Origin: Deltaproteobacteria bacterium
GTDB lineage: Bacteria > Myxococcota_A > UBA796 > GCA-2862545
Assembly: GCA_006226595.1 (NCBI GenBank)
Contig: SBGP01000104.1
Coordinates: 1-64,000 of the forward strand
Reading direction: 5' to 3'
DNA length: 64,000 nucleotides
Below the pieces are notes generated by a model. The model was given only the letters and a program-made list of their open reading frames with translations, made no database searches and was not told where the DNA came from. This document shows, in pieces, positions 12,434 through 34,192 of this stretch; within the stretch, counting starts at the first letter, position 1, and every line of letters begins with the position of its first letter. The position numbers and the translations under genes were made by a program.

Positions 12434-13336
12434 CTATCCTACCCGCTCACCGCGCCGAAGGCCCGCGGCGAGAAGGTCGAAGACCACGCGCAGGCGCCGG
12501 CTGGTGTGCACCGCCCGGTGCGTGGTGAGCCACAAGGGCACAACCATCGGCGGCATCACCGCCGGGATGCGCGCGACGCTCGGCTCGGCGTCGCCGACGT
12601 CCTCCATCATGAAGCACAGCCCGAGACCGGCCCGGCACAGCGCCCACTGGACCAGGTGGTTGCGGGTGGCGATGGCCAGGTTCTCCTGGGTGAGGGCAGC
12701 CCCCATGTGGCGCAGGTGCCCGAGAAAGACCTCGCTTCGGTCGAAGGCGAGCAGCTGCGCGCGCTGAAGGTCCTCGGCGGTCTCGATGGGCCCGATGTCG
12801 GCGAGGTACGCGTGAGTGCCGTACAGCCACGCGGGGTCCTCACGGACCTTGCGGGCGGTGAGCTCGGGGTCGGTGGGTCGAAAGTTGCGCAGGGCGATGT
12901 CGGCCTCGCGCTTTCGCAGGTCCCGCACCTCGGTCGTCGCGACCAGATCGAGCTCGATGCCCGGATGCAGCTCGCGGATGCGCGCGAGGATCGGGGGGAG
13001 CAGGAACGCGCACTGGCTCTCGCTCGCGGTGATGCGAACCAGACCCTCCAGCGAGCGCGAGCGACCCGTGGCCGTCAGCGACACGCGCCGCGCCGCATCG
13101 CGCATCGCGCGGATGTGCTCGATGAGGTCGAGGCCGGCCTCGGTGAGCTCCAGCCCGCGACCCACCCGCTGCACGAGGGTCACACCCAGCTCGTCCTCCA
13201 GCGCCGCCACCTGGCGCCCGATGGTCGGCTGCGTCGCCCCGAGTGCACGCGCAGCCCCCGAGAACGAGCCCTCTTCGGCGGTGGCGAGCAGCGCCCTGGC
13301 CCGGTTCCAGTCGAAGTCGGTGGTCGCCCAATCCAT
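12434..13336 (-). CDS. LysR-family transcriptional regulator
   Basis: 300 residues from the ATG at 13334-13336; an ATG four codons earlier (13348) is also possible. The N-terminal winged helix is clear (FDWNRARALLATAEEGSFSG, then AARALGATQPTIGRQVAALE), followed by a typical LysR effector-binding domain. It is divergent from the oxidoreductase at 13447, the usual layout for a LysR regulator and its target. The unusually AT-rich divergent region holds a 17-bp dyad (13374-13390). Confidence 0.93.
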   Translation of the reverse strand: MDWATTDFDWNRARALLATAEEGSFSGAARALGATQPTIGRQVAALEDELGVTLVQRVGRGLELTEAGLDLIEHIRAMRDAARRVSLTATGRSRSLEGLVRITASESQCAFLLPPILARIRELHPGIELDLVATTEVRDLRKREADIALRNFRPTDPELTARKVREDPAWLYGTHAYLADIGPIETAEDLQRAQLLAFDRSEVFLGHLRHMGAALTQENLAIATRNHLVQWALCRAGLGLCFMMEDVGDAEPSVARIPAVMPPMVVPLWLTTHRAVHTSRRLRVVFDLLAAGLRRGERVG

Positions 13337-13373
13337 ACGCAAATGCATATCACATCGTCAATATTCCACCATT

Positions 13374-19349: not shown

Positions 19350-21332
19350 CTATTCTGGCAACCGGCCGAGCCACGCCCGCACGTCGTTCATGCGAAAGGG
19401 CTTGTGAAGGACCTCGACGTCATCGAGGGCGTCTGGCAGCTCGTCGGGGGCGTAGCCCGTAATCATCAGCACGGGCAGATGGGGCGCATAACGGCGGGCC
19501 ACGCTCGCGACTTCGGTGCCGCGGGCCCCCTCCAGGACCACATCCGTAATCACGGCCTGTGGGCGGTGGTGCTCAAGCCAAGCGATGGCGGCGTGGCCGT
19601 TGGTGAGGTGGGTGACCTGGTGCCCTTCCTGGCGAAGGACCTCGAGCAGCAAGGTCGCCACCATGCGGTCGTCCTCGATGAGGAGGACGTTGCGCGCCGC
19701 GCCCCCAGCGGCTGGCTCGGCCTGAGATCCGGGGGGCACACTCGGCTGCGGGGCCTGATCCAGCGGTAGCAGGACACAGAAAGTACTGCCCCGACCGACC
19801 TCGCTCTCCACGTCGATGGTGCCACCGTACTCCTCCACGATGCCATGACACATCGCGAGGCCAAGGCCCGTGCCCTGGTGCTCGTCCTTGGTGGTGAAGA
19901 AGGGGTCGAAGATGTGCCGCAGCACCGAGGCCGGAATGCCCGCCCCCGTGTCTTCGACGAACAGCGCGGCCGAGGGTTCGTGGTCGAGTGTGGCCGCCGC
20001 CGTGCGTATCGAGAGCCTTCCGCCGTCCGGCATCGCGTCTCTCGCGTTCACGGCCAGGTTCATCACCACTTGCTCGATCTGGGTCGCATCAGCGCGAACC
20101 CAGAGCACCTCGTCGACCTGGATGTCGAGAGCGATGTCCTCGCCCAGGAGGCGCTCGATGAGGCTCGCACTCTCGCGCACCGTCGCGGAGAGGTCGATCA
20201 CTCGCGGCCGAGTGGGCAAGCGGCGGCTGAAGGCAAGCAGCTGACGCGTGAGGTTCGCAGCCCGTGATGCGGCCGACTCGAGGGTATCGAGTCGCTGGTG
20301 CTGGCTCTGATGCGTCAGCTCCAGGCGCAGTAGCTCCGAGGAGCCGAGGATGGCGGTGAGTAGATTGTTGAAGTCGTGCGCGACCCCACCCGCCAGCCGG
20401 CCGAGGCTCTCGAGGCGGTCCGAACGCTGCAGGCGTCGCTCGAGCTCACGGCGCTCGGTGTGGTCGGCTGCGATGCCCGTGACTCGAATCGGTTGGCCGT
20501 CTTCGAAGAGGACCTGCCCCCGGCACTGTAGCCAGTGCACGGTGCCGTCGTCCCAGCAGACGCGGTGCTCGACGAAGTAGTCTCCGCCGGCGAGTATCGC
20601 GTCCTCGAGGGCCTCTCCGAGGAGCGGCCGATCTTCGGGGTGAATCAGCGCCATATAGGTGTCGAGGTCGGGGGGCTGCCAGCCCTCGGGCTTGCCGAAG
20701 AGGGGGCCCACGTCCGCGGACCAGCGAACGGAGTCCTCGCGCATATCCCACGCCCAATCCCCGACCGCCGCGGCCCGCAGCGCGATGCGCACCTCGCGTT
20801 CCCGACGCCGAAGGCGTTCCTCGGTGGCGCGCAAGCGGGCCGACTGACGTGCCAGCGCGACCAGATCGCCGATCGACGCCGCAAACGACTTCTCCGGTTC
20901 GGTCCACGAGCGCGGTGCGCCGCGGGACTCGTGGCAGACCACACCCGCCATTGCGCCGCCGATCAGGATGGGGGCGTCGAGCATGGCGCCGATGTTCAGA
21001 GGCACGAGGTAGCCCTCGGCCAGGCCGCGGGTGCGCGGATCGTTGGGCGCGTCGTCGACGGCGACCACCCGCGCCCCCGAGATGGCCTCGAAGTACTCGG
21101 GACAATCCGCAAACGCGAGGAAGGCCCCGGTCTCGACGATGCCCGTGCTCACGTCGAACAGGTGCTCGCAGCGGATGCCGTCGTCGTGCAGGTCCCAGAA
21201 CGAGACGCGGTCCGATCGCAGCGCACGACTCGCGGCTTCGGCAAGGGCCTGAAGCGCGTCCTCGAGCGAGCCTCCCGCCCAGCGGGGGTCGCGCACGATG
21301 TCGTGGAGCACGTGGGTGAACGGATTCGCCAT
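19350..21332 (-). CDS. GAF-PAS hybrid histidine kinase with receiver domain
   Basis: 660 residues from the ATG at 21330-21332; a GTG five codons upstream is possible. GAF domain (~20-150), PAS domain (~170-290, with the PAC-like FEDGQPIRVTGIAADHTERR), H-box GGVAHDFNNLL (His ~321), ATPase domain (N-box MNLAVNARDAMPDGG, DTGAGIP, GTGLGLAM) and a C-terminal receiver (~547-660) with phospho-Asp in AVITDVVLEG. The protein is soluble. No dedicated response regulator is adjacent. Its 5' end faces the hemerythrin gene across 256 bp. Confidence 0.93.
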   Translation of the reverse strand: MANPFTHVLHDIVRDPRWAGGSLEDALQALAEAASRALRSDRVSFWDLHDDGIRCEHLFDVSTGIVETGAFLAFADCPEYFEAISGARVVAVDDAPNDPRTRGLAEGYLVPLNIGAMLDAPILIGGAMAGVVCHESRGAPRSWTEPEKSFAASIGDLVALARQSARLRATEERLRRREREVRIALRAAAVGDWAWDMREDSVRWSADVGPLFGKPEGWQPPDLDTYMALIHPEDRPLLGEALEDAILAGGDYFVEHRVCWDDGTVHWLQCRGQVLFEDGQPIRVTGIAADHTERRELERRLQRSDRLESLGRLAGGVAHDFNNLLTAILGSSELLRLELTHQSQHQRLDTLESAASRAANLTRQLLAFSRRLPTRPRVIDLSATVRESASLIERLLGEDIALDIQVDEVLWVRADATQIEQVVMNLAVNARDAMPDGGRLSIRTAAATLDHEPSAALFVEDTGAGIPASVLRHIFDPFFTTKDEHQGTGLGLAMCHGIVEEYGGTIDVESEVGRGSTFCVLLPLDQAPQPSVPPGSQAEPAAGGAARNVLLIEDDRMVATLLLEVLRQEGHQVTHLTNGHAAIAWLEHHRPQAVITDVVLEGARGTEVASVARRYAPHLPVLMITGYAPDELPDALDDVEVLHKPFRMNDVRAWLGRLPE

Positions 21333-21514
21333 ATGTCCAGTATGCACCGCAGCGACGACTCGATGGGTGCCTTCGTGGCTCGGGTCGATGGCACCGCGCG
21401 GCGATCAGGCTCTACCCGCACCTCCGGCATGGCCAGCCGTCCACCACGAACGCCCGCTGGAGCGCCCGCTGCCTCGCGGTTGAAGCGGGCCCTCGGATCC
21501 GCCCTCAACTTTTT

Positions 21515-21545
21515 TGGCGCACTTCCGAACCCCCTGTCGCAGGGG
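21515..21545 (+). promoter_or_regulatory. Shared promoter-like motif, copy A (hemerythrin gene)
   Basis: TGGCGCACTT followed after 9 bases by CTGTCGCAGGGG. The same two blocks with identical spacing occur at 22359, 30121 and, on the minus strand, 30109-30080. The motif lies 43 bp before the ATG at 21589. The two-block form resembles a -35/-10 promoter for an alternative sigma factor. The 240 bp around it, between divergent genes, hold nothing else I can identify. Confidence 0.55.
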
Positions 21546-21588
21546 TGGGTGACGGCCGATGCGGCTGCCCACGTTCACGGAGGTTCCC

Positions 21589-22251
21589 ATGTCCCAGTTC
21601 AACGTCCGCCCCTTCGCCTTCATGCGTCTGACCCACGAAGCCCTGCGGGAAGGCATCCTCGCGCTCCAGGCCCACGCGGACGACGGCGACCTCGCCGCCG
21701 TGAACGACGAGTACGTCCGCCTCCGTGCGGTCATCGACATCCACGCCGCACAGGAGGAGGGCCGGTTCTTCCCCCTGCTCGACGAGCTGTTCGACGGTGC
21801 GGTCGCCAAGGCCGGCCTGCGCGAAGCCCACGAGCGCGAGGAGTCTCACCAGGCCGCCTTCGAAGGCGCCCTCGCCGTGCGGGATGTCCGCGCGGTTCGC
21901 GAAGCCCTCGCCGCCTGGGCCGTGTCCTTCGAGGCCCACCTCGCGGATGAGGAGGCCGTCATGATGCCGCTGACCCAGCGCGTGGCCCCGACGCTGGAGG
22001 GACGCGCGGCAGCCGTTCGCACGCTGCTCGAGGTCGACTGGGACGGCCTGCGCACCCACCACCTGCCCTACGTCGTCCGTACGCTGGCGGCGACCCGGCC
22101 GTTCGGCCCCACCCGCATGTTCATCGCGGCCCTCCAGCTCGCCGCCGGCGAGCGCTACGGCGAGCTCGCGCCGGTGGTCGAAGACGCACTGCCCGCCGCC
22201 CTGCGCGACCAGCTCAGCGCCCTCGGCCACCTGCCCGGCAGGGCTGCGTGA
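21589..22251 (+). CDS. Hemerythrin-like (HHE) domain protein
   Basis: 220 residues. The start ATG has ACGGAGG seven bases upstream; the frame opens ten codons earlier without a ribosome-binding site. The N-terminal ~130 residues form a four-helix HHE domain with candidate iron ligands in MRLTHEALREG, IDIHAAQEEGRFFP, EREESHQAAFE and FEAHLADEEAVMMP. The C-terminal ~85 residues are Ala/Leu-rich helices. Hemerythrins of this kind bind oxygen or NO or protect iron. The gene has copy A of the shared promoter-like motif and the same leader (GGAGGTTCCCATGTCC) as the next gene. Confidence 0.82.
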   Translation: MSQFNVRPFAFMRLTHEALREGILALQAHADDGDLAAVNDEYVRLRAVIDIHAAQEEGRFFPLLDELFDGAVAKAGLREAHEREESHQAAFEGALAVRDVRAVREALAAWAVSFEAHLADEEAVMMPLTQRVAPTLEGRAAAVRTLLEVDWDGLRTHHLPYVVRTLAATRPFGPTRMFIAALQLAAGERYGELAPVVEDALPAALRDQLSALGHLPGRAA

Positions 22252-22358
22252 GTCCAGGGCGTTCGCGCCGGGCCGACCGACATCACCTCGACCGACGACG
22301 CCTTGCTCCCTGGAGCGAGGCGTTCCTCGTTGAGGAGCCAAGAAAAGATCGACGGCCT

Positions 22359-22388
22359 TGGCACAGTTTCCGACGACTCGTCGCAGGG
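22359..22388 (+). promoter_or_regulatory. Shared promoter-like motif, copy B (exported protein gene)
   Basis: TGGCACAGTT followed after 9 bases by TCGTCGCAGGG, 20 bp before the ATG at 22409. It is the second of four copies with identical block spacing. The downstream leader is also nearly identical to that of the hemerythrin gene. Confidence 0.55.
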
Positions 22389-22408
22389 CTTGGTGAACGG
22401 AGGTTCCC

Positions 22409-23215
22409 ATGTCCAAGCTCGCGCTCCTCGCCCTCGCGACTCTCGCTGCCGCCCCGCTGCTCGGCCAGGTCGCGAGCAACGCGGTCACGGCGGACATTCG
22501 CCCCGAGGACTTCGTGGGGCAGGCGGAGGATGCGGACCGGCAGGCACGCGGCCGAGCCATCGCCGAGCGCGGCGTGCTGGCCCAGGGCGGCCGAGCGCTC
22601 TGGGACCGGCAGCAGTCCCTGCACCTCGCCATCTCCGACGACTGGGACCTCACCCCGTTCCGCATGTACATGCCGCTCGCAGAGGACCAGGTGTCGTTCG
22701 AGGGCGACATCGACCTGCATCACGACCTGGGCGAGTCCTCCTGGACGATCACGAGCGGGAGCGCGGCCGGAAGCCAGTTCGGCGTCCACAACGGTCGAGC
22801 CTGGAAGGGAAGCCAGGAGGCGAACGCAGGTCCGGGCGTGCAGTTCTTCGCGCCCACCATGGAATTCCTCCCCACACTGGCCTTCCACGTCGGCTCCGCG
22901 GACGTCGTGTCCTACGTCGACACGGTGCAGCGCGACGGCGAGGCCTACGACCGGGTGTTCGTGACCTGGGGAGACCCCGAGACGCCCACCGCGACCATGG
23001 ACCAATACCTGGTCTACTACGCACAGGACACGGGCCTGCTGACCTACCTCGAGTGCACCGTGCGGGACTTCGGCCCCTTCGTCACGGGGTCGGTGCACTA
23101 CGGTGCATGGACCAGCGATGACCTGTCGCTTCCGACCGAATACGCCATGCATCTCATAGACCTCGCTGGACCGCGGGTGCATCGCGTGACCCTCGACCGG
23201 GTCGCCTGGCGATGA
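22409..23215 (+). CDS. Uncharacterised exported protein
   Basis: 268 residues with a signal peptide (MSKLALLALATLAAAPLLGQ). The mature part (~25-268) is rich in Asp, Tyr and Trp and has alternating beta-type patterns (TWGDPETPTATMDQYLVYYA, YVDTVQRDGEAYDRVFVTW) of the kind seen in periplasmic lipid-binding or lipoprotein-carrier folds. I recognise no family with confidence. It sits behind copy B of the shared motif with a strong GGAGG, and its TGA is 65 bp before the preferred start of the histidine kinase. Confidence 0.78.
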   Translation: MSKLALLALATLAAAPLLGQVASNAVTADIRPEDFVGQAEDADRQARGRAIAERGVLAQGGRALWDRQQSLHLAISDDWDLTPFRMYMPLAEDQVSFEGDIDLHHDLGESSWTITSGSAAGSQFGVHNGRAWKGSQEANAGPGVQFFAPTMEFLPTLAFHVGSADVVSYVDTVQRDGEAYDRVFVTWGDPETPTATMDQYLVYYAQDTGLLTYLECTVRDFGPFVTGSVHYGAWTSDDLSLPTEYAMHLIDLAGPRVHRVTLDRVAWR

Positions 23216-23230
23216 GCATCGGCCTGAGGT

Positions 23231-23264
23231 ATCGAAGCCCGTCATACGGCGGGTCGAAGCCCGT
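23231..23264 (+). repeat. Direct repeat with hairpin before the histidine kinase gene
   Basis: Two copies of TCGAAGCCCGTCA (23231-23243 and 23252-23264) lie 8 bases apart between the exported protein gene and the histidine kinase GTG at 23281. The first copy also forms a short CCGT-cat-ACGG hairpin. The repeat could be an operator or an attenuating structure in the leader. It is short, so its significance is uncertain. Confidence 0.35.
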
Positions 23265-23280
23265 CAGTCGGAGGACCCTC

Positions 23281-24879
23281 GTGAACGATCTGCTCGCACG
23301 CATCGGCGCCATCGCAGACCGACCAGGCGATGACGACGAGACCAAGCTCAAGCACCGCATCCTGGTGTTCGCGGGCGTCCTGATGAGCGGCGGTGGCCTG
23401 CTGTGGGGCACGATCACCTTCGTGTTCGGGCTGTACTGGGAGTCGTCGGTTCCGTTCGCCTACGTCGTGCTCACCGCGATCAACTTCCTCATCCTGTGGC
23501 GGACGAAGAGCTTCCCGGCGGCACGGTTCTTCCAGGTAGCGATCAGCCTGCTGCTGCCCTTCGCGTTCCAGTGGGTGCTCGGCGGCTTCGTGACCAGCGG
23601 CGCCATGATGATCTGGGCGATGCTGTGCCTGCTTGGTTCGCTCACGTTCGAAGAGGCCAAGTCCACGTTTCAGTGGCTCGGCATGTTCATCCTCCTCACG
23701 ATCGCCTCCGGCATCCTCGAGCCGCACCTCGTCCCCCCCGAGGCGATTCGCGAAGCGTGGCTCTCCACCCTGTTCTGGATGATGAACCTCATTGTCGTGA
23801 CCAGTGTCGTCTTCGGGCTGACCCTGTTCTTCGTGCGACAGCGCAAGGTTGCCATCGACGAGCTGGCGGTCCGCAACCGACAGATCGCCGAGAGCCAGCA
23901 GGCACTGGTCCAGAGCGAGAAACTGGCTGCGCTGGGGCAGCTCGTCGCGGGCGTTGCCCATGAGCTCAACACGCCGCTCGGCGCCATCAACGCCTCGGTA
24001 GACAACCTCGAGCACGCCATCGGGCACGCGCTGACGGCGATTCCCGGCATCATCCTCGACACGACGGACGAGGAGAAGGCCGCCCTGCTGATGATGATCG
24101 TCAAGGCGAGCACGCACCCGGTGTACCTCTCCTCCCGCGAAGAGCGCGCCGCTCGCCGGAAGCTCCGGAAGTCCCTGGAGGCCGAGGAGCTCGCGGAGGC
24201 CGTCGCGATGGTGGACCTGCTCGTCGACCTCGGGGTGCACGAGTACGACCCCGCGCTTCGCCCGGCGCTCGACTCGCCGCGGACCAAGCGCATCGTGAAG
24301 CTGGCGCACGACTTCTCCGCGATGCGCCGCAGTAGCGGCAACATCAAGGTGGCGGCCGAGCGCTCCGCGAAGATCGTATTCGCGCTCAAGTCCTACGCGC
24401 ATCCCGGCGGGAGCGGTGAGTGCACCACCGGCGACCTCGGCGAGCACCTCGATACGGTGCTGACGCTGTACCACAACAAGATGAAGCGGGGCGTCGAGGT
24501 CACTCGCGACTACTGCGACAATGCGGTCATCGACGCGCGACACGACCAGCTCAACCAGGTGTGGACCAACCTCGTGCACAACGCGATCCAAGCCATGGAC
24601 TTCGAGGGCAAGCTGATCATCGCGGTGGTCGAGGTCGACGACGGCGTCGAGGTACGGGTGACCGACACGGGCCCCGGCATCCCTCCGGAGGTCCAGGACC
24701 GCATCTTCGAGCCCTTCTACACCACCAAGGCGGCGGGGGAAGGCAGCGGGCTCGGCCTGTCGATCTGCAAGGACATCGTCGACCGCCACCAGGGACGGAT
24801 GTCGGTCGAGAGCCGGCCCGGCCACACCCAGTTCACCGTATTCCTGCATCGCAAGTGTGCCTTCGAGGAGGCTGCGTGA
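23281..24879 (+). CDS. Membrane sensor histidine kinase
   Basis: 532 residues from the GTG at 23281, which has CGGAGG seven bases upstream; an in-frame ATG at 23212 overlaps the previous stop but lacks that site. About five to six transmembrane helices (~25-190) form the sensor. A short coiled linker leads to SEKLAALGQLVAGVAHELNT (His 227). An unusually long helical insert (~250-360) separates the two dimerisation helices. The ATPase domain has the N-box NLVHNAIQAMD, DTGPGIPP and GEGSGLGLS. The stop overlaps the response regulator start by four bases (GTGA), so the two are a cognate pair. Confidence 0.92.
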   Translation: MNDLLARIGAIADRPGDDDETKLKHRILVFAGVLMSGGGLLWGTITFVFGLYWESSVPFAYVVLTAINFLILWRTKSFPAARFFQVAISLLLPFAFQWVLGGFVTSGAMMIWAMLCLLGSLTFEEAKSTFQWLGMFILLTIASGILEPHLVPPEAIREAWLSTLFWMMNLIVVTSVVFGLTLFFVRQRKVAIDELAVRNRQIAESQQALVQSEKLAALGQLVAGVAHELNTPLGAINASVDNLEHAIGHALTAIPGIILDTTDEEKAALLMMIVKASTHPVYLSSREERAARRKLRKSLEAEELAEAVAMVDLLVDLGVHEYDPALRPALDSPRTKRIVKLAHDFSAMRRSSGNIKVAAERSAKIVFALKSYAHPGGSGECTTGDLGEHLDTVLTLYHNKMKRGVEVTRDYCDNAVIDARHDQLNQVWTNLVHNAIQAMDFEGKLIIAVVEVDDGVEVRVTDTGPGIPPEVQDRIFEPFYTTKAAGEGSGLGLSICKDIVDRHQGRMSVESRPGHTQFTVFLHRKCAFEEAA

Positions 24880-25268
24880 GTGAAGCCGCTTTCGTGCTCG
24901 TAGATGACGACAAGATCGTGCTCGACTCCCTGCGGGGCCAGCTACGCCGCGCATTCGGACCCGGCTACGTCTACGAGACTGCCGAGAACGTGTCCGAGGC
25001 CTGGGAGGTCATCGACGAGCTCCACGACGACGGCCTGCGCACGGTAGTGGTCGTCTCCGACTGGCTGATGCCGGGCGTTCGCGGCGACGAGTTCCTCCGC
25101 GACGTGCGCGCCCGCTTTCCCGACATCGTGCGCATCCTGCTCACCGGGCAAGCCGATGAGGATGCGATCGAGCGCGCCCATCGCGATGCCAAGGTCGCGG
25201 AGGTCTTCTACAAGCCGTGGAACATCGACGAGCTGGCAGGTGCCATCCGACGCGAGCTCCCAGAATGA
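24876..25268 (+). CDS. Single-domain response regulator
   Basis: 130 residues, a receiver domain alone. Acidic cluster VLVDDD (~6-11), phospho-Asp in VVVVSDWLMPG (~55), conserved Thr in RILLTGQA and Lys in VFYKPWNID. GAGGAGG precedes the GTG start. The gene overlaps the kinase upstream (GTGA) and the receiver-cyclase downstream (ATGA). A stand-alone receiver between a kinase and another receiver may act as a phosphate sink or relay. Confidence 0.93.
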   Translation: MSEAAFVLVDDDKIVLDSLRGQLRRAFGPGYVYETAENVSEAWEVIDELHDDGLRTVVVVSDWLMPGVRGDEFLRDVRARFPDIVRILLTGQADEDAIERAHRDAKVAEVFYKPWNIDELAGAIRRELPE

Positions 25269-26569
25269 GCACCCGTAGGGCCATCCTGTGCGTCGACGAC
25301 GAGCGCATTATCCTGACCAGCTTGCGCGCACAGCTTCGACGCCGGTTCCCCGACGATCTCGAGATCGAGACCGCCGAGGACGGAACCGAGGGCCTCGAGG
25401 TCCTCGAGGAGCTCATCGCGGACGGCGTCGAGGTGCCCCTGGTCATCTCGGACCAGCTGATGCCCGGCATGCGCGGCGAAGAGTTCCTTGCCGAGGTGCA
25501 CCGCAGACTACCGGACACCCTCACCGTCCTCCTCACCGGCCAGGCCACGGCCGAAGCTGTCGGGCAGGCGGTCAACACGGCGCGTCTGTACCGCTTCATC
25601 GGCAAGCCATGGACCGAGGACGACCTGGCCATGACCGTGCGCGAAGCGCTGCGTGCCTGGAACCAGACCCACCAGATCCGCCTTCGCGATGCCGAGCTCC
25701 AGCAGGCGCACAAGGCGTCGCTGCGCTTCGTGCCTCGCGAGTTCCTGGGCCTGCTCGGCCGCGAGAAGCTCGTCGACGTGCGCTACGGCGATCACGTCGA
25801 GCGCGAGATGCACATCTTGTTCGCCGACATGCGTGGGTTCACGGCGCTGGTCGAGGGCAAGGGCCCCGCGGAGTCCTTCGCATTCATCAACGACTACATG
25901 CAGCTGCTCGACCGCTCGATCCGAGATCACCACGGGTTCATCAGCAACATCGAAGGTGACGCGGTGCTCGGCCTGTTCGGCGGGACCGCAGACCAGGCCG
26001 TTCGCGCCGGCGTGGAAGCCCACCGGGAGCTGAGTGCCTGGAACACGCGCAGGGCCACCACGGGCGAGGCGCCAATCCACATGGGGGTCGGCGTCAACTC
26101 GGGCCCACTGCTGCTCGGCACCATCGGTGGCGAAGACCGCCTGCAGTGTGACGTCGTGGGCGATGCGGTGAATCTGGGCTCGCGGGTCGAGAGCCTCACC
26201 AAGGTCTACCAGACCGAGATGCTGATCACCGACACCACCGAACGCCAGCTGACCGAGCCCTGGTTGCTCCGCCGCGTCGACCGCGTCCGAGCCAAGGGCA
26301 AGACCCACGCCGTGACGCTGTACGAGGTGCTCGATGCCCTCGATGACGAGCGGCGAGAAGCGCGACGCCGCACTGCCGACGCTTACGCGCAAGCCCGGGA
26401 AGCCTACGAGCGGGGCGACATCGCGGCGGCCACGGTCGGATTCGCCACGGTTGTGGCGGACGATCCCACCGATGGCGCGGCCTGGCTGCACACGGACCGC
26501 TGCGCGCGCCTCGCGGGGACCGAGCTACCTGAAGACTGGGACGGCACCACGCGCATGCACAGGAAGTAG
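25265..26569 (+). CDS. Receiver-domain class III adenylate/guanylate cyclase
   Basis: 434 residues. Receiver domain (~5-125) with phospho-Asp in PLVISDQLMPG and Lys in FIGKPWTEDD, then a class III cyclase domain (~175-350). Metal-binding Asp residues lie in HILFADMRGFTALVEGKGP and SNIEGDAVLGLFGG, and the transition-state Asn/Arg pair in VVGDAVNLGSRVES. The adenine-selecting Asp is present in LQCDVVGD, but the usual partner Lys position (SNIEGD) is Asn. The C-terminal ~60 residues are a TPR-like helical tail. Cyclase activity is probably controlled by phosphorylation from the adjacent kinase. Confidence 0.92.
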   Translation: MSTRRAILCVDDERIILTSLRAQLRRRFPDDLEIETAEDGTEGLEVLEELIADGVEVPLVISDQLMPGMRGEEFLAEVHRRLPDTLTVLLTGQATAEAVGQAVNTARLYRFIGKPWTEDDLAMTVREALRAWNQTHQIRLRDAELQQAHKASLRFVPREFLGLLGREKLVDVRYGDHVEREMHILFADMRGFTALVEGKGPAESFAFINDYMQLLDRSIRDHHGFISNIEGDAVLGLFGGTADQAVRAGVEAHRELSAWNTRRATTGEAPIHMGVGVNSGPLLLGTIGGEDRLQCDVVGDAVNLGSRVESLTKVYQTEMLITDTTERQLTEPWLLRRVDRVRAKGKTHAVTLYEVLDALDDERREARRRTADAYAQAREAYERGDIAAATVGFATVVADDPTDGAAWLHTDRCARLAGTELPEDWDGTTRMHRK

Positions 26570-26681
26570 GCCGCGCGAGTGCTACCGTCTCCCGCGTCGA
26601 GGAGGCACAGCGGGCATCTGGCGAGCCATCGTCGACTCGGGAACCCGCGCCGAGGGGCTCGACCCTTCGGACGCGAAGCAC

Positions 26682-27809
26682 GTGCGGGTCGCGAACGTGG
26701 CCTCGCTGATGCTCACGCTGTCGACGGGCTGGTGGGTGCCGGTCAACCTCGCGGAAGGCATCGTCTGGAACGCCGCGGCAAACGCACTCGTCGCCGCACT
26801 CTTCTTCGCCGCATTCTGGGTGAACCGCGCGGGCCGACACGCCTCCGCAGCCGCCATGATCCTGGTGTTGGGCCACTTCCAGCTCGGGTGGGCCGTGTTC
26901 TGGTTCGGCTACCCTTCGGGCAGCCTCGCCTACTACGCGTCCCTCATCGCAGGTGGCTACCTGCTGTGCGCACGCCGCTTGCGCTGGATGGCGCACGTCT
27001 CCTCCGTCGCGAGCGTGGGCACCGTAGCTGTGTTCGCGTCGATGGCGGATCAGCTCCCACAGCGCATCCCCTTGATGCCGGTCGAGCAGCAGGCCGTCAT
27101 CAACGAGACCCTCGGAGCCGTGGTGCTGCTCGTCGCCGTGTGGGCCTACGCGCGCATGGCGGACGGCGCCGAGGACGACCTCGCCAGGGAGCGAGAGCGC
27201 TCGGACCGGCTGCTGCTCAACGTCTTGCCACCGTCCATCGCCGAGCGACTCAAGGACGCGCCCGACGAGCTGATCGCGGACGACCACGACGAGGTGACCG
27301 TGCTGTTCGCCGACCTCGTGGGCTTCACGCCGATGTCCGAGAAGGTCGGCGCACGGGCGACAGTGGATCTGCTCAACGAGCTGTTCAGTCACTTCGACCA
27401 GATCTGCGAGGCCGCTGGCGTCGAGAAGATCCGCACGATTGGCGACGGGTACATGGCGGTGTGCGGTGCCCCACTCGCCAACCCGGACCACGCCGTGGTC
27501 ATGACCCGGGTCGCCATGCAGATGCGCGACCATGTGGCCACTCTGCCGAGTGCGGCAGACGTGCGCGTGCGCATCGGCCTCAACACCGGGCCCGCCGTGG
27601 GCGCCGTCGTGGGCCGACAGCGTTTCCACTTCGACCTGCTCGGCGACACCGTGAACGTCGCCGCGCGCATGGAGTCGCTCGGCGAGCCGGGGCGTATCCA
27701 CCTGGCTCGCCCCACCTGGGAACGCATCCACGACGTCATCCCGTGCGAAGCGAGGGGCACCCTCGAGGTCAAGGGCAAGGGACCCATGGAGACGTGGTTC
27801 GTCGCCTAG
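26682..27809 (+). CDS. Membrane class III adenylate cyclase
   Basis: About 375 residues. Five to six transmembrane helices (~10-165), then a helical linker (RERERSDRLLLNVLPPSIAERLK) and a class III cyclase domain (~195-370). Metal Asp residues lie in VLFADLVGFTPMSEK and RTIGDGYMAVCG. Adenine selectors are Lys in VEKIRTIGD and Asp in FHFDLLGD, and the Asn/Arg pair is in VNVAARMES, so it should make cAMP. The start is unclear: the frame has no ATG, GTG or TTG between 26508 and the GTG at 26682, yet coding-like sequence and a GGAGG at 26601-26605 lie upstream, with an ATC ten bases after it (26616). Confidence 0.88.
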   Translation: MRVANVASLMLTLSTGWWVPVNLAEGIVWNAAANALVAALFFAAFWVNRAGRHASAAAMILVLGHFQLGWAVFWFGYPSGSLAYYASLIAGGYLLCARRLRWMAHVSSVASVGTVAVFASMADQLPQRIPLMPVEQQAVINETLGAVVLLVAVWAYARMADGAEDDLARERERSDRLLLNVLPPSIAERLKDAPDELIADDHDEVTVLFADLVGFTPMSEKVGARATVDLLNELFSHFDQICEAAGVEKIRTIGDGYMAVCGAPLANPDHAVVMTRVAMQMRDHVATLPSAADVRVRIGLNTGPAVGAVVGRQRFHFDLLGDTVNVAARMESLGEPGRIHLARPTWERIHDVIPCEARGTLEVKGKGPMETWFVA

Positions 27810-27854
27810 TACCGCGCGGAATTGGTTACACTCGCCGACGATGCGGAGAAGGAC

Positions 27855-28406
27855 ATGGCAGAGGTGACGGAGCTCCTCGTCCGGTCGCGAGAAGGAGACG
27901 AGGCAGCGCGCAACGCCCTGGCCCCCCTCGTCTACGACGAGCTCAAGCAACTCGCAGCTCGGCACATGCGGCGGGAGCACAGCGCCCACAGTGTCCAGGC
28001 GACTCAGCTCGTGAGCGACGCCTTCATGAGGCTGGTCGGGCAGGCCCGCGTGGACTGGGAGAGCCGCAGCCACTTCTACGCCCTGGCAAGTCGCGTGATG
28101 CGGCAGATCCTGGTCGAGCACGCTCGCGCCCGCGGTCGCCAGAAGCGCGGCGACGGGGCCACGCACGTCTCGTTCGACGACGTGGTCACCGTGTCGACCG
28201 ACCGAGACGAGGACATCCTCGCCATCGAGGATGCGCTGGAAGCACTCGAGGCCATCGATCCTCGCCAGGCCGAGATCGTGACCATGCGGTTCTACGGCGG
28301 CATGAGCATGCAGGCGGTCGCCGATGCGCTGGGGATGTCGAAGCGCAGCGCCGACCGGGAGTGGGCGTTGATCAAGGCCTGGCTGCGACGGGAGTTGGCC
28401 CAGTGA
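27855..28406 (+). CDS. ECF-type RNA polymerase sigma factor
   Basis: 183 residues. Region 2 is visible in YDELKQLAARHMRRE through DAFMRLVG and FYALASRVMRQILVEHARA; region 4 in ALEAIDPRQAEIVTMRFYGG and ADALGMSKRSADREWALIKAWL. The features (LVSDAFMRL, VDWESRSHFYALA, KRSADREW) match the ECF group that is typically encoded next to Ser/Thr kinases instead of an anti-sigma factor. The ATG at 27855 has GAGAAGG close upstream. The TGA overlaps the GTG of the kinase gene (GTGA), so sigma factor and kinase are coupled. Confidence 0.93.
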   Translation: MAEVTELLVRSREGDEAARNALAPLVYDELKQLAARHMRREHSAHSVQATQLVSDAFMRLVGQARVDWESRSHFYALASRVMRQILVEHARARGRQKRGDGATHVSFDDVVTVSTDRDEDILAIEDALEALEAIDPRQAEIVTMRFYGGMSMQAVADALGMSKRSADREWALIKAWLRRELAQ

Positions 28407-29836
28407 GGGTGGACGCCAACCGTGTACGCGAGCTCTTCTTCGGCGCGCTCGACCTCGAACCGGAGGCCATTCCCGCCTACCTCGACGAGGCCTGCGGTGA
28501 CGATGCGGCCCTCCGCGCCGAGGTCGCGTCGCTGCTCGGGTTCCACGACGAGAGCGACCTGGTGGCGCAAGGTTCGTCGAACACCGCCTTCCTCGAGACG
28601 CTCGTCGACGCGCACGAGGCGCCTCTCCCATCCACCGTCGACACCGGGCGGTACCGTGAGCTCTCGGAGCTGGGCGTCGGCGGTTGCGGACGGGTGACCC
28701 GCGCCTGGGACGCCGTCCTGAAGCGGGTCATCGCCCACAAGCGGGTTCGGTTCGACGACGAGATGCGCAAGGGCATGCTGCAGCACGAGGCGAGGTTGCT
28801 GGCGTGGCTCGATCACCCCGGCGCGGTGCCCGTGTTCGAGGGGTCGTTCGATGAGGAGGCCGGTGCCTTCTACACAATGCGGCTTCTCGAGGGCGACACC
28901 CTGCGGGAGCGCCTCGATGCGAAGGGCCAGCTGGCGGTTCGCGAGGCCATTCGCATCGTGGCCCGCATCAGCGAGACGATGGCCAACGCACACGCCAAGG
29001 GCGTGCTCCACCTCGACCTCAAACCGGCCAACATCATGCTGCTCCCCTACGGCCAGGTGTGCATCCTGGACTGGGGTGTCGCGCGGTTCCACGACATGGA
29101 CGCCTACCGGGCGTACCTCCGTTCGGTGGGCGAAGCAGAGGAGGCACCCGAGGCGGGCTACGCCGGAGTCGCCGGTACACCGGCCTACATGCCGGTCGAG
29201 CAGGCCACCGGAGACGGGGTGTCGGTCGGCGCGGACATCTATGCGTGCGGCACCCTCCTCTACGAGATGCTGGCCGGAGAGCTGCCTCACCGGACGGGCA
29301 GCTCAGCGCTCGCGGTGTTCCAGAAGGCGCTCGCCGAGGTCACCCCGCTGCGGGAGCACCGAGCCGACATCCCCGAAGCCCTCGAGGCGCTGTGTCTCCA
29401 GATGATCGCGCCGGACCCGGACGACCGCCCCGCGAGCTTCGATGACGTGCTCGCGGCCCTCGACCAGCTGAATCACGGAGCCACGAATGCCGAAGAGCGG
29501 CGACTGGCCCCTGGGCAGGTGCTGTTCCGGGAGGGCGACCGCGGCGCCGAGGCCTTCCAGATCCTCGAAGGCGCCGTGGCCATCTCGGTGGCGGGTCCAG
29601 AGGGTCCCACCGAGCTCGCCCGCCGTGGTGTGGGCGATCTGATCGGCGAGATGGCCGTCGTGAGCGGGGCGCCGCGAAGTGCCACGGTGACGGCCGTGGA
29701 GCCGACCCGGGTCGCGGTGGTCACCGGCGACGTCATCGAGCGCGCGCTGGAAGCCTCCAATCCTCTGGTCGCTCGCATGCTGCGCAGCCTGGTCGACCGG
29801 CTTCGCGAAGAGGCCGACCGCGCCCGCCAGAGCTAG
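28403..29836 (+). CDS. Ser/Thr protein kinase with C-terminal cyclic-nucleotide-binding domain
   Basis: 477 residues. An N-terminal ~75-residue helical segment is followed by a kinase domain (~80-355): glycine loop LGVGGCGRV, Lys in IAHKRV, catalytic HLDLKPANIML and DWG in place of DFG, then GVAGTPAYMPVEQATG. The C-terminal ~105 residues are a cNMP-binding domain (LAPGQVLFREGDRGAEAFQI) whose phosphate-binding cassette IGEMAVVSGAPRSATVTA keeps the Glu and Arg that hold cyclic nucleotides. Two cyclase genes lie upstream on the same strand, so cAMP control of the kinase, and through it of the coupled ECF sigma factor, is a reasonable inference. The stop overlaps the convergent small gene by four bases. 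Confidence 0.93.
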   Translation: MRVDANRVRELFFGALDLEPEAIPAYLDEACGDDAALRAEVASLLGFHDESDLVAQGSSNTAFLETLVDAHEAPLPSTVDTGRYRELSELGVGGCGRVTRAWDAVLKRVIAHKRVRFDDEMRKGMLQHEARLLAWLDHPGAVPVFEGSFDEEAGAFYTMRLLEGDTLRERLDAKGQLAVREAIRIVARISETMANAHAKGVLHLDLKPANIMLLPYGQVCILDWGVARFHDMDAYRAYLRSVGEAEEAPEAGYAGVAGTPAYMPVEQATGDGVSVGADIYACGTLLYEMLAGELPHRTGSSALAVFQKALAEVTPLREHRADIPEALEALCLQMIAPDPDDRPASFDDVLAALDQLNHGATNAEERRLAPGQVLFREGDRGAEAFQILEGAVAISVAGPEGPTELARRGVGDLIGEMAVVSGAPRSATVTAVEPTRVAVVTGDVIERALEASNPLVARMLRSLVDRLREEADRARQS

Positions 29837-30051
29837 GCGGCCACGGACGTCGGGGTCGCCGTCGCTGGCCGAGGCTCCTCGTCGGTGAGCAGCGCAGCCG
29901 CCATCGGCACCGCGATGCCGCCGAGCATGCCCAGGATCGTGGCCGTGGACGAAGCCACCAGACCGTAGTGAGACGCCAGTGCGCCGAGGGCGGGCAGGCC
30001 CCACACGGACAGGGAAGCGACGACGAGAGCGGGGGCGGGAGAGGTGGGCAT
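29833..30051 (-). CDS. Small membrane protein
   Basis: 72 residues. The ATG at 30049-30051 has AAAGGAG six bases upstream. Two hydrophobic segments (~8-24 and ~34-54) are joined by a short loop with a His (ASHYGL); the tail TDEEPRPATATPTSVAA is polar. No family recognised. Copy D of the shared promoter-like motif lies 28 bp upstream in the right orientation, placing this gene in the same putative regulon as its divergent neighbour at 30193. Confidence 0.72.
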   Translation of the reverse strand: MPTSPAPALVVASLSVWGLPALGALASHYGLVASSTATILGMLGGIAVPMAAALLTDEEPRPATATPTSVAA

Positions 30052-30079
30052 CGGGTGCTCCTTTCGGGCGTTCACCGAG

Positions 30080-30109
30080 CCCTGCGCCAACCCCCGCGAG
30101 ACTGTGCCA
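30080..30109 (-). promoter_or_regulatory. Shared promoter-like motif, copy D (small membrane protein)
   Basis: On the minus strand TGGCACAGTC is followed after 9 bases by TTGGCGCAGGG. It has the same block spacing as copies A, B and C and points to the gene starting at 30051. Together with copy C it forms a back-to-back pair: TGTGCCA (30103-30109) and TGGCACA (30121-30127) are an exact inverted repeat separated by 11 bases. Confidence 0.55.
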
Positions 30110-30120
30110 ACTTTCTTTTC

Positions 30121-30152
30121 TGGCACAGTTCGCGACCGGCTGACGCAGGGGG
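30121..30152 (+). promoter_or_regulatory. Shared promoter-like motif, copy C (acetoacetate decarboxylase-like gene)
   Basis: TGGCACAGTT followed after 9 bases by CTGACGCAGGGG, 40 bp before the ATG at 30193. Block spacing is identical to copies A, B and D. It forms a divergent pair with copy D. Confidence 0.55.
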
Positions 30153-30192
30153 AGGTGAAGGCTCGGACGCACCGAGTCGAAGGAGGTCCACC

Positions 30193-31059
30193 ATGCTGTT
30201 CACCCTCGAATCCGACCAGATCCGCGCCCTCGACCAGTTCTCCAAGAACGGCGAGTTCTACGGTGCAGAGATGCTCTTCGCACGGTTTCGGACCGACCCG
30301 GCAGTCGTGGCGCAGATCCTCCCGAACGGGCTGAAGCCCACCCCCGAGGCGCGCGGCGTGGTCTTCGTCGCGCACTACCCGAGCACGAACTTCGAGTGCG
30401 TCTACAACGAGGGTGCGCTGTTCCTCGAGTGCGAGCGCCGCGGCGAGAAGGGCCTGTACTGTCTGTCGATGCCCGTCGACGACGACATCGCCCTGATCGG
30501 TGGGCGCGAACTGTTCGGGTACCCCAAGAAGATGGCCGAGCGCATCGAGCTCACCCGCGTGGGCAACCGCATCGTCGGAAGCGTCGTGCGCCGCGGCACC
30601 GAGATCCTGCGCATCGAGCTCGACGACGCGGCGCCAGCCGAGGCCGACGCCATGGGCGCCTTCGGGGTCTCGACGACCGACGAGGCCGGTGCAGCCGCGT
30701 TCCTCGCCCCGTCGTTTCTCTACAAGTACTTCCCCCATCCCGGCAGTGACGGGCTCGACTACCTCCCGCGGCTGATCCGCCAGCCCAACCTGCTGCGTCC
30801 CCGTCTGGGATTGCTGCGGGGCCGGGGCCGGGTCACGCTCAACTCGACCGTGCGGGATCCACTGGGCGAGGTGCCCGTCGTCGAGGTGACCGACTGCGTG
30901 TACGGGCGCTTCGACAACACGATGCTGCCGGGAAAGGTGGTGGGCCGTGCATGGAACGTCTGGAAGTTCGCCAAGCACGCGTTCTTCAAGACGGACATCG
31001 TGGCCTGCCGCCTCGACAGGCTCCAGCGGGAAGAACGAGCGAAGGTCGAGGTCGCGTGA
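30193..31059 (+). CDS. Acetoacetate decarboxylase family protein
   Basis: 288 residues. The family signature IGGRELFGYPKKMAE (~100-114) is present and includes the Lys pair in which one residue forms the Schiff base in acetoacetate decarboxylase. Length and the beta-rich pattern fit the ADC fold. Many ADC-fold proteins act on other keto acids, so the substrate is open. The ATG has AGGAGG six bases upstream and the gene carries copy C of the shared promoter-like motif. A 17-bp palindrome follows its stop. Confidence 0.85.
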   Translation: MLFTLESDQIRALDQFSKNGEFYGAEMLFARFRTDPAVVAQILPNGLKPTPEARGVVFVAHYPSTNFECVYNEGALFLECERRGEKGLYCLSMPVDDDIALIGGRELFGYPKKMAERIELTRVGNRIVGSVVRRGTEILRIELDDAAPAEADAMGAFGVSTTDEAGAAAFLAPSFLYKYFPHPGSDGLDYLPRLIRQPNLLRPRLGLLRGRGRVTLNSTVRDPLGEVPVVEVTDCVYGRFDNTMLPGKVVGRAWNVWKFAKHAFFKTDIVACRLDRLQREERAKVEVA

Positions 31060-31081
31060 CCGCGAGCTCGGCAGGGGGCCT

Positions 31082-31098
31082 GCGACTCGACGAGTCGC
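31082..31098. repeat. 17-bp perfect palindrome after the decarboxylase gene
   Basis: GCGACTCG-A-CGAGTCGC, starting 22 bases after the stop of the decarboxylase-like gene. It could act as a transcript-end hairpin, though the one-base loop would need the stem to open. No T-run follows it on the plus strand. Confidence 0.4.
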
Positions 31099-31118
31099 GA
31101 ACCTCTCCGAACGAAGAA

Positions 31119-31148
31119 GCCCCCTCCGAAACACTGCTCGGAGGGGGC
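31119..31148 (-). terminator. Rho-independent terminator of the tRNA-Gln gene
   Basis: Perfect 10-bp stem (GCCCCCTCCG with CGGAGGGGGC) around a 10-base loop, starting 8 bases after the 3' end of the tRNA. On the minus strand a T-rich stretch (TTCTTCGTT) follows. The symmetric stem could also stop transcripts arriving from the plus strand. Confidence 0.8.
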
Positions 31149-31156
31149 CCTTCAGA

Positions 31157-31231
31157 TGGCTGGGGCGGAAGGATTCGAACCTTCGAATGCCGGACCCAAA
31201 AACCGGTGTCTTGCCACTTGACGACGCCCCA
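31157..31231 (-). tRNA. tRNA-Gln (anticodon UUG)
   Basis: 75 bases including an encoded CCA end. Acceptor stem TGGGGCG/CGCCCCA with discriminator G; D arm GTC-AAGTGGCAA-GAC; anticodon arm CCGGT-TTTTGGG-TCCGG with anticodon TTG; variable bases CATTC; T arm GAAGG-TTCGAAT-CCTTC. The layout closely follows bacterial tRNA-Gln. The base pair closing the anticodon loop (31-39) is T-T instead of a Watson-Crick pair. A strong terminator follows. Confidence 0.93.
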
Positions 31232-31276
31232 AGACAAGCCCTGCCTATCGGCCGGCTCGACCCTCGGCAAGGCGGC

Positions 31277-32095
31277 TCACGCGCGCCGCGCGAAGGTCAC
31301 CGAGAACCGTACCTTCCCGATGGGCGCGACCTCGTGCGGAACCGTCGGCTCGACCACGCCATCGCGTCCGGGCTCGAGGCGGAACACCCCGCCGAGACCC
31401 CCGCGAATTCGGTACCACAACGCGCCCTCGTCGACGGAGATGCGCGCCCACACGCCCTCCTTGGTGGTGTGCTGCGCGAGCAGCCCGGCGGGCACGGTCG
31501 CCTCGGTGAACGCCACGCTGCGGTAGGCCTCGGCATCCGCGGGCATCGTCGGCATGGCCGGGCCAGGCTCGTGGGGACGGTCGAGGGCGAGATCCACGCC
31601 CTCGATGGGGGTGATGTCGAGGGTCTCTCCCGCGCGGATCAGGGTCTCGGCCGCGAGGGTCGCGACCTCGGTGGCCAGGCGCGTGCAGAAGGCGGCGCGC
31701 TCGGGGCTGCGGAACTCGTCGAACTGGTCGGTGAGGTCGTGGCACACGTCGCTCTCGGCACGCATGCGGTCCACGCGCCGAGGAAGCTCTCGGTCGAAGA
31801 AGGCCACCGCAGCGAGCAGCCGCGACGTGGCGGCACCCGTGGGGTCGGGGTCGCCGAGCACCTCGCCGAGCACGAGGCGTCCGCCCATCATCGCGCCGCA
31901 CGTGCCCATGCCGGTGAGCCCGCCCTTGCGCAGGGCCTGGTACGGGCGAGTGGGCAGCCCGAAGGTCTCGGCCAGGCTGATGCCGCAGCTGCGATGGGGC
32001 GTGGCGGTGCCCTCGTACAGGGTCCACGCCTTGAGTCGGGCGGCGGCGACGAGCCGCGCCTCCGCCTCGGTGAGCTCACGCGTCCACGCGTCCAC
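31277..32095 (-). CDS. C_GCAxxG_C_C-type redox domain fused to a DUF1971 (TehB-like) cupin
   Basis: 272 residues in two parts. Residues ~1-150 match the C_GCAxxG_C_C family: Cys in RSCGISLAETFG, GTCGAMMGGRLVLGEVLG, a later Cys in SDVCHDLTDQFDEF and AAFCTRLATEVA. These proteins are small Cys-rich putative redox or metal proteins. Residues ~185-272 (YRSVAFTEATVPAGLLAQHT through VEPTVPHEVAPIGKVRFSV) match the DUF1971/YeaR/TehB-type cupin associated with tellurite or nitrate response. I do not know the fusion as a described protein. The function is probably oxidant or metalloid detoxification (inference). Confidence 0.75.
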   Translation of the reverse strand: MDAWTRELTEAEARLVAAARLKAWTLYEGTATPHRSCGISLAETFGLPTRPYQALRKGGLTGMGTCGAMMGGRLVLGEVLGDPDPTGAATSRLLAAVAFFDRELPRRVDRMRAESDVCHDLTDQFDEFRSPERAAFCTRLATEVATLAAETLIRAGETLDITPIEGVDLALDRPHEPGPAMPTMPADAEAYRSVAFTEATVPAGLLAQHTTKEGVWARISVDEGALWYRIRGGLGGVFRLEPGRDGVVEPTVPHEVAPIGKVRFSVTFARRA

Positions 32096-33273: not shown

Positions 33274-34191
33274 TCAGTGGCAGGCGCACACGAGCTGGCG
33301 CTCGGCCTCGAGCCCGCCGCCCACCGACTCGCCCGGGTAGGTGCCGATGATCGAAGTGCCGGTCACGCACTTGCCGTAGAACGACTTCACGTTCACGTAG
33401 CCATAGCCAAAGCCGTGGCCGCCGGTGCCCCCGCCCGTCTGCGTCCAGCCGCCCGGGTTGCCGTTCTCGTAGAACCACGTGCTCACATCGCCGGCGCCCG
33501 CGACCGAGCACGAGTCCGGGAATGCATCCTCGGCCTGCAGCGCGCGGTTCGACACGCCGAGCGAGGTGCACACCTCGTCGCAGGTCTTGCCCGGGCTGCC
33601 CAGGTACCAGCAGAAGCCGTAGAGCTCGGCGGGCCCGGCAATGGCCTCCCCACCGCCGCTCGCGCACACCACCGGGTCGGTGTCGGTGTCGGTGTCCGTG
33701 TCCGCATCCGTGTCGGTGTCCGCATCCGCGTCGGTGTCCGCATCGGCGTCGGTGTCCGCGTCCGCGTCGGTGTCCGCGTCCGCGTCGGTGTCCGCGTCCG
33801 CGTCGGTGTCCGCGTCGGTGTCGGTGTCCGCGTCGGTGTCGGTGTCCGCGTCGGTGTCGGCGTCGGTGTCGGTGTCCGTCTCGCAGCCGCCGTCGTCGTC
33901 GGGCGTGGAGGGGTCGCAGTCGTCGTCGAGGCCGTTGCACAGCACCTCGGCGGCTCCCGGGTGCACGTCCGGGTTTCCGTCGTCGCAGTCGAGACCCGCC
34001 GGGGAATAGGCGTCCGCGCAGTCGAGGATCGTGCCGTCGACGTAGCCGTCCTCGTCCGCGTCGAAGGGCGAGTCCACCGGGTCTTCGGAGGGCTGCTGGA
34101 CCCCGTCGCAGCGCGCGTTCTCGGCGACCCCGATGTCGCCGTTGCACGCGGCGAGGGCCAGGAGGAGCGTGGGAAGGAGCGATCGGTGCAT
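33274..34191 (-). CDS. MopE-type lipoprotein with long Asp-Thr-Ala repeat
   Basis: 305 residues from the ATG at 34189-34191. Signal with lipobox ALAAC (Cys ~16), then a MopE-like putative metal-binding region (DADEDGYVDG, DCDDGNPDVHPGAAEVLCNG, LDDDCDPSTPDDDGGC). A ~70-residue tract of alternating Asp with Thr or Ala follows (~110-180). The C-terminal ~115 residues contain six to eight Cys and a Gly-rich segment (TQTGGGTGGHGFGYGYVNV) and may be a separate lectin-like or adhesive domain. The Asp tract probably acts as a stalk or calcium binder. It is 1 bp downstream of the SLC12-like transporter gene on the same strand. Confidence 0.85.
   Translation of the reverse strand: MHRSLLPTLLLALAACNGDIGVAENARCDGVQQPSEDPVDSPFDADEDGYVDGTILDCADAYSPAGLDCDDGNPDVHPGAAEVLCNGLDDDCDPSTPDDDGGCETDTDTDADTDADTDTDADTDTDADTDADADTDADADTDADADTDADADTDADADTDTDADTDTDTDTDPVVCASGGGEAIAGPAELYGFCWYLGSPGKTCDEVCTSLGVSNRALQAEDAFPDSCSVAGAGDVSTWFYENGNPGGWTQTGGGTGGHGFGYGYVNVKSFYGKCVTGTSIIGTYPGESVGGGLEAERQLVCACH
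33677..33890 (-). repeat. Hexanucleotide repeat tract coding for Asp-Thr/Asp-Ala
   Basis: About 210 bp of imperfect 6-bp units (GTGTCG, GTGTCC, GCGTCG or GCGTCC on the plus strand) inside the lipoprotein gene. Each unit codes for two residues, Asp-Thr or Asp-Ala, so slippage changes length without breaking the frame. The opposite strand is also open over this tract, which is a by-product of the repeat. Confidence 0.9.
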
Positions 34192-34192
34192 G

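Follow-up and report, generated by a model that had tools for sequence, protein, structure and literature searches.

Four copies of a predicted core promoter in and around the gene row of an ECF sigma factor and its adjoining kinase in a Deltaproteobacteria bacterium

A stretch of 64,000 nucleotides from a Deltaproteobacteria bacterium (Myxococcota_A; assembly GCA_006226595.1, contig SBGP01000104.1, positions 1 to 64,000; hereafter, the window) contains four copies of a motif built of three blocks, each copy shortly ahead of a start codon, in and around a group of genes that encodes an extracytoplasmic function (ECF) sigma factor, a Ser/Thr kinase and two nucleotide cyclases. The motif is most simply explained as a core promoter, a function that we predict for it. 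Taking the evidence together, we consider it rather probable that the four sites are instances of a single core promoter and constitute a private regulon, of four promoters, that belongs to the ECF43-like sigma factor encoded at 27855–28406, with positive feedback through the site at the head of the gene row in which this factor is encoded.

Results

The sequence TGGCRCASTY-N13-CGCAGGG is found without mismatch at 21515–21544 (+), 22359–22388 (+), 30121–30150 (+) and 30109–30080 (−), and in every copy CGCAGGG is succeeded, three bases on, by a third invariant block, GGTGA. With this block included, the elements span 21515–21552 (site 1, +), 22359–22396 (site 2, +), 30121–30158 (site 3, +) and 30072–30109 (site 4, −); the first block reads TGGCGCACTT in site 1, TGGCACAGTT in sites 2 and 3, and TGGCACAGTC in site 4, continued in each by N13-CGCAGGG-NNN-GGTGA. 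The initial annotation of this DNA had placed four copies at these positions with identical block spacing, and both statements hold for all four; its gap of nine bases becomes 13 up to CGCAGGG, because a variable stretch of four bases had been counted into the second block. Sites 3 and 4 point away from each other, their first blocks being 11 bp apart. Within the core, from TGGC to GGTGA, 20 of the 38 columns are invariant, compared with 13 of 300 in the upstream flank (−330 to −30). In addition, the 20 bp ahead of block 1 are 50–60% A+T at all four sites, in a window of 69.4% G+C; an A+T-rich stretch upstream of a promoter is as in UP elements.

Each site has one of the genes named in the initial annotation downstream of it: a hemerythrin-like protein (site 1), an exported protein (site 2), an acetoacetate-decarboxylase-like (ADC-like) protein (site 3) and a small membrane protein (site 4). 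From CGCAGGG to the ATG the distances are 44 nt (site 1, ATG at 21589), 20 nt (site 2, 22409), 42 nt (site 3, 30193) and 28 nt (site 4, 30051), in place of the 20–43 bp first given, and a purine-rich Shine-Dalgarno (SD) sequence lies ahead of all four ATGs. We predict sites 1, 3 and 4 to be the promoters of the hemerythrin, ADC-like and small membrane protein genes, respectively, and site 2 to be that of the gene row with the sigma factor and kinase. This row consists of seven genes on the same strand (22409–29836); given the start codons adopted, neighboring genes overlap or are separated by no more than 112 nt, and no terminator-like site was found in 21300–31300. Site 2 probably drives this row, for which we infer transcription as an operon, and with it the gene of the sigma factor. 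The sites had been described as enclosing the island; they do stand around it, but site 2 does more than enclose, since it heads the row. As that row encodes both the sigma factor and the kinase, the layout predicts autoregulation.

The closeness of the blocks to start codons would also suit an RNA element in the 5′ leaders. The leaders, however, fold no better than shuffled sequences (z-scores of 0.23, −0.77, 1.60 and 0.12), no complementarity exists between the blocks, and Rfam shows only tRNA; we regard such an element as very improbable. Even less probable, in our view, is a mobile repeat or a recombination site, such as a recombinase target present in both orientations. Three of the copies are indeed direct and one is inverted, around a unique island next to a tRNA-Gln gene, yet the sequence between the blocks is different in each copy, the similarity of the flanks ends at the motif, each copy keeps a promoter-like distance from a start codon, and no inverted-repeat arms were seen.

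The motif is confined to this part of the genome. When the 38-base pattern was run with up to three mismatches over the organism's whole genome (7,231,518 bases in 117 contigs, an assembly that is 97% complete), exactly these four matches were returned, all within 8.6 kb, and the reversed control gave none. This genome-wide scan had been proposed with the initial annotation, and it finds the motif not scattered but 20–44 nt ahead of a start codon in each case. A looser two-block pattern that omits the third block, allowing at most one mismatch, matched 16 places in the same genome versus 19 in the control, so that the other 12 two-block matches are background; with one mismatch, the two-block pattern matched at scattered places in 34 of 58 genomes (this organism's own being included in both numbers). 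Consistent with the pattern search, a weight matrix applied to 1,618,251 bases including the window, or 22% of the genome, scored the four sites at 47.9–55.5 and the next position at 18.4, and the reversed matrix reached at most 15.6. When the matrix was built from three sites, the fourth always outscored every position of the window not used in training and all of 1,604,358 positions from other loci. The most motif-like match in a relative (genome G013, contig C8; locus L110) has none of the island genes in its vicinity.

Several features point to a promoter, as the motif was called from the outset. Measured as GGCRC-N17-CGCAGG, the boxes are separated by 17 bp in all four copies, a two-box geometry like that of ECF promoters, in which the spacer is about 16–17 bp and which lie just upstream of the start. 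The short distances to SD-preceded ATGs fit the same prediction from geometry. At sites 2 and 4, moreover, the 20 and 28 nt before the ATG accommodate an SD sequence and leave no space for a separate promoter; hence, the motif is either the promoter or an operator placed over or after one. As to other promoter types, no sigma-70-type promoter (TTGACA- and TATAAT-like hexamers 16–18 apart) was found in 21300–31300, where one would be hard to see at 69% G+C. A sigma-54 promoter was also considered. Its consensus is TGGCAC-N5-TTGC, and the first block of the motif, TGGCAC, equals the −24 consensus; the candidate was rejected in that the GC of GG-N10-GC is missing from all four copies, which have AA, GA, GA and CG there in sites 1–4.

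Regarding the protein that would read the motif, the sigma factor has the only recognised DNA-binding domain (Sigma4) among the proteins encoded in 21.5–31.06 kb, as judged by Pfam with weak, below-cut-off matches set aside. The two response regulators have no DNA-binding output domain, and the kinase gives no match to a CRP-type helix-turn-helix. In the whole genome there are two strong PF07638 sigma factors, the local one and one on contig 89 (C89:11498-11974), together with six weaker matches. We therefore propose that the sigma factor at 27855 reads the motif, as the initial annotation had suggested: with the only such domain in the block, a gene in the site 2 row and a single other strong member of its family in the genome, it is the best candidate, although homologous sigma loci and target genes elsewhere are without the motif. 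The six weaker matches and the contig 89 protein could be taken to mean that a different alternative sigma factor, such as the contig 89 protein or a more distant ECF factor, uses the sites as its promoters, with the local sigma factor serving other targets. None of the four sites is near the contig 89 locus, however, no resembling site is present there, and a regulon confined to a single 8.6-kb block points to a sigma factor encoded in that block; we judge this explanation quite improbable. The contig 89 sigma gene also has a Ser/Thr kinase adjoining it, and upstream of it CGCAGGGG and GGTGAA occur at another spacing.

Homologues of the target gene bear on the same question. Five relatives of the hemerythrin were compared: three in other genomes (52–57% identity), one in a genome of the same genus (47%) and a paralogue in the own genome (44%). 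No match to this sigma factor was found in the neighbourhoods retrieved for the five, and in none of them is the motif present in the 300 bp upstream, where the best agreement is 11–13 of 17 positions, versus 17 of 17 for the four sites. Since the hemerythrin homologues without an adjoining sigma factor are also without the motif, the motif goes with the island and not with the target gene. The own-genome paralogue (contig 110, 47001–58781) has matches to a cyclase, a Ser/Thr kinase and a histidine kinase within 10 kb, and the 52%-identical homologue (genome G098, contig 63) has one TGA inside its frame.

The sigma factor (27855–28406, +; 183 residues) matches PF07638 (2.8e-53) and TIGR02999 (199.9 bits against a cut-off of 126.15), and contains sigma2 and sigma4 domains only; its start is marked by an SD sequence and by the beginning of the Pfam match. 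In region 2.2, QATQ replaces DAED, and the Thr of this sequence is conserved in all 23 aligned sigma sequences, the local one among them. The gene of a Hanks-type Ser/Thr kinase (28403–29836, +) overlaps the sigma stop codon. This protein combines a kinase domain (PF00069, 4.5e-33) with a C-terminal cyclic-nucleotide-binding domain (PF00027), which aligns with the regulatory subunit of protein kinase A (PKA) through the cassette GEMAVVSGAPRSATV in an alignment to the Protein Data Bank (PDB). The catalytic Lys and Asp of the kinase are retained, in HLDLKPAN and in a DWG where DFG is expected, which we take to be its catalytic motifs. To place these proteins, 22 loci with homologues of the sigma factor were used, comprising 19 of the 44 places found outside the own genome and three from another search. 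A kinase match is present in 20 of the 22; the cyclic-nucleotide domain of the local kinase was not found at these loci or at L110 (23 loci; phmmer, E ≤ 1). Two records from Planctomycetota are among the named relatives of the sigma factor, and a search for further relatives in the family of genome G150 brought none that was new. In the accessible portions of two papers (PMC13147305, PMC8999054), ECF43 factors are described in which phosphorylation of this Thr by the neighboring kinase supplies the missing charge. By its domains, the adjoining kinase gene and the uncharged, Thr-bearing replacement of DAED, the local protein is predicted to be a sigma factor of this phosphorylation-activated ECF43 type.

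Two class III cyclase genes precede the sigma gene. The nearer of them (26682–27809, +; start uncertain) encodes a membrane class III cyclase (PF00211) with a weak MASE7-like resemblance; its best PDB matches are adenylate cyclases, and it is probably one itself. The other (25265–26569, +) encodes a fusion of a response regulator with a class III nucleotide cyclase (PF00072 and PF00211). Ahead of these lie the exported protein that begins the row (22409–23215, +; weakly similar to the LBF_0142 lipoprotein family, NF047762 in NCBIfam at 1.8e-20, below cut-off), a sensor histidine kinase (PF02518, PF00512; + strand, from 23281 with an SD sequence, or from 23212 with overlap of the upstream stop codon, to 24879) and a single-domain response regulator (24876–25268, +; PF00072). 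The receiver part of the receiver-cyclase, 25265–25690, resembles the NosR-family response-regulator model NF053512 (nitric oxide; 3.1e-36, 125 bits, below the cut-off of 400), which, along with the hemerythrin target, is a hint of an oxygen or nitric-oxide signal.

Among the genes outside the row, the hemerythrin (HHE) protein (21589–22251, +; PF01814) is assigned the start at 21589 in preference to 21559, on account of an SD sequence, GGAGG, at the former and of homologues that begin close before F.VRPFAFMRLTH. On the other side are a membrane-like protein of 72 residues (29833–30051, −) known from its translation and matching no Pfam or NCBIfam family, and the ADC-like protein (30193–31059, +; PF06314, 2.6e-46). 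The island appears to be unique: the exported protein had no match at E ≤ 1e-25 in 376 other genomes of the phylum, and homologues of the hemerythrin, exported and ADC-like proteins were found at none of the sigma-homologue loci examined. No synteny of the island was found with the genome of the same genus. A tRNA-Gln(TTG) gene (31157–31231, −) directly past the ADC-like gene lies at the right edge of the island and could mark an integration site. On the left, a GAF-PAS hybrid histidine kinase with a C-terminal receiver (19350–21347, −) is divergent to site 1 and shares its intergenic space with the predicted hemerythrin promoter. Farther to the right, 33676–33901, inside an open reading frame (ORF; 33274–34248, −) that has no Pfam match, gives dozens of dispersed DNA matches of about 75–90% identity in the own genome and the family, and looks like a repeated protein-coding module.

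Discussion

The layout described here invites a specific proposal. In each core promoter, (T)GGCRCA would be the −35 element and CGCAGG the −10 element, with a spacer of 17 bp counted from GGCRC between them, and GGTGA would be a conserved region of transcription start. The signaling steps that we infer from domains and gene order would begin with the sensor kinase and the receiver-cyclase, together with the membrane cyclase, changing the level of a cyclic nucleotide, to which the Ser/Thr kinase would bind through its C-terminal domain. In the next step this kinase would phosphorylate the QATQ Thr in region 2.2 of the sigma factor, and the phosphorylated sigma factor would bind core RNA polymerase and open the four promoters. 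Through sites 1, 3 and 4 it would direct expression of the hemerythrin, the ADC-like enzyme and the small membrane protein, and through site 2 that of seven genes including the sigma factor itself, its kinase, the two cyclases and the two-component system, closing a positive feedback loop. In the accessible portion of PMC8103513, about 55% of ECF factors are given as autoregulated, a share with which site 2 fits. The complete circuit would link a cyclic nucleotide, by way of a PKA-like bacterial Ser/Thr kinase, to a phosphorylation-activated type of sigma factor whose whole regulon is four promoters sharing one non-classical sequence, its own promoter among them; we put this circuit forward only tentatively, and would give it somewhat less than an even chance.

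It is necessary to consider several observations that weigh against the sigma factor at 27855 as the reader of a core promoter. The 376 other genomes of the phylum did not yield a second one with the motif, two scattered single hits with at most two mismatches being the only matches there. The second PF07638 locus of the own genome is without it as well, there being no copy on contig 89, and so are the 22 sigma-homologue loci. Nor do these loci have a repeated motif of their own that stands clearly above background, in a test that is weak in that the best pair of the window itself reaches only 27 of 38 and is equaled by several loci; inspection by eye of the DNA ahead of homologous sigma genes likewise revealed nothing. 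The boxes are non-classical, GGCAC or GGCGC where GGAAC would be expected and CGCAGG instead of CGT, and the third block is extra; classical ECF boxes have AAC at −35 and CGT at −10 according to the accessible part of PMC8103513. The conservation of GGTGA is stricter than a region of transcription start needs.

Furthermore, block 2 resembles block 1. It is TGNCGCAG in three copies and CGTCGCAG in site 2, and in the four copies the sequences TGTCGCAG, CGTCGCAG, TGACGCAG and TGGCGCAG echo TGGCRCAG/C at a distance of 20 bp. This likeness would suit a dimeric DNA-binding protein and is the best argument for operators, that is, for sites bound by a transcription factor whose gene lies outside the island, such as a dimer on the direct repeat TGGCRCAG / TGNCGCAG, which would act as a repressor in the 5′ leader or over the promoter. 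The fixed interval of about two helical turns, the GGTGA block that follows and the failure to find the motif at other sigma loci are consistent with this idea. It is opposed by the distances at sites 2 and 4, which rule out a classical upstream activator site there, and by the lack of a visible sigma-70-type promoter in the block, with the reservation made above on base composition. Likewise, the sigma factor is alone in the block in having a recognised DNA-binding domain, and the nearest regulator found is a LysR protein (12434–13348) with a divergent ADH gene next to it; were the regulator a genome-wide one, further sites would be expected in other parts of the genome. On balance, we think operators unlikely, and continue to favor core promoters of the local sigma factor.

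Described examples of sigma factors activated by phosphorylation are few, and no promoter sequence is given for them in the accessible portions of PMC13147305, PMC8999054 and PMC8103513. In the available parts of the literature on ECF43 and planctomycete ECF promoters and on cyclic-nucleotide-gated bacterial kinases, no such motif or circuit was found. In this case a single 10-kb block holds the motif, the factor, the kinase and a plausible source of the ligand, such that promoter recognition, cyclic-nucleotide gating of the kinase and feedback could be reconstructed in a laboratory strain from a small number of genes. If the proposal is correct, the regulon of this sigma factor would comprise only four promoters.

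It is informative to examine the island in light of known systems. Classical ECF promoters share with the motif two short boxes, a spacer of 16–17 bp close upstream of the start, and the autoregulation predicted here. Among ECF43 factors that work with a Hanks-type kinase, EcfP/PknT of Vibrio parahaemolyticus and EcfK/PknS of Xanthomonas citri are alike in having the kinase gene adjoin the sigma gene, and in the sequence that replaces DAED in region 2.2 with the Thr kept, QATQ here, STTA in EcfP and QATE in EcfK, as given in the accessible portions of the sources. The kinase described here ends in a cyclic-nucleotide-binding domain, whereas PknS is a transmembrane receptor, and neither pair is like the island in having cyclases and a two-component system in the gene row or a local regulon of four promoters with a visible motif. 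Outside the bacteria, the coupling of a PKA-like phosphate-binding cassette domain to a Ser/Thr kinase recalls PKA and protein kinase G (PKG) of eukaryotes; in contrast to these, the kinase here is of the bacterial Hanks type, its domain is C-terminal, and its probable substrate is a sigma factor.

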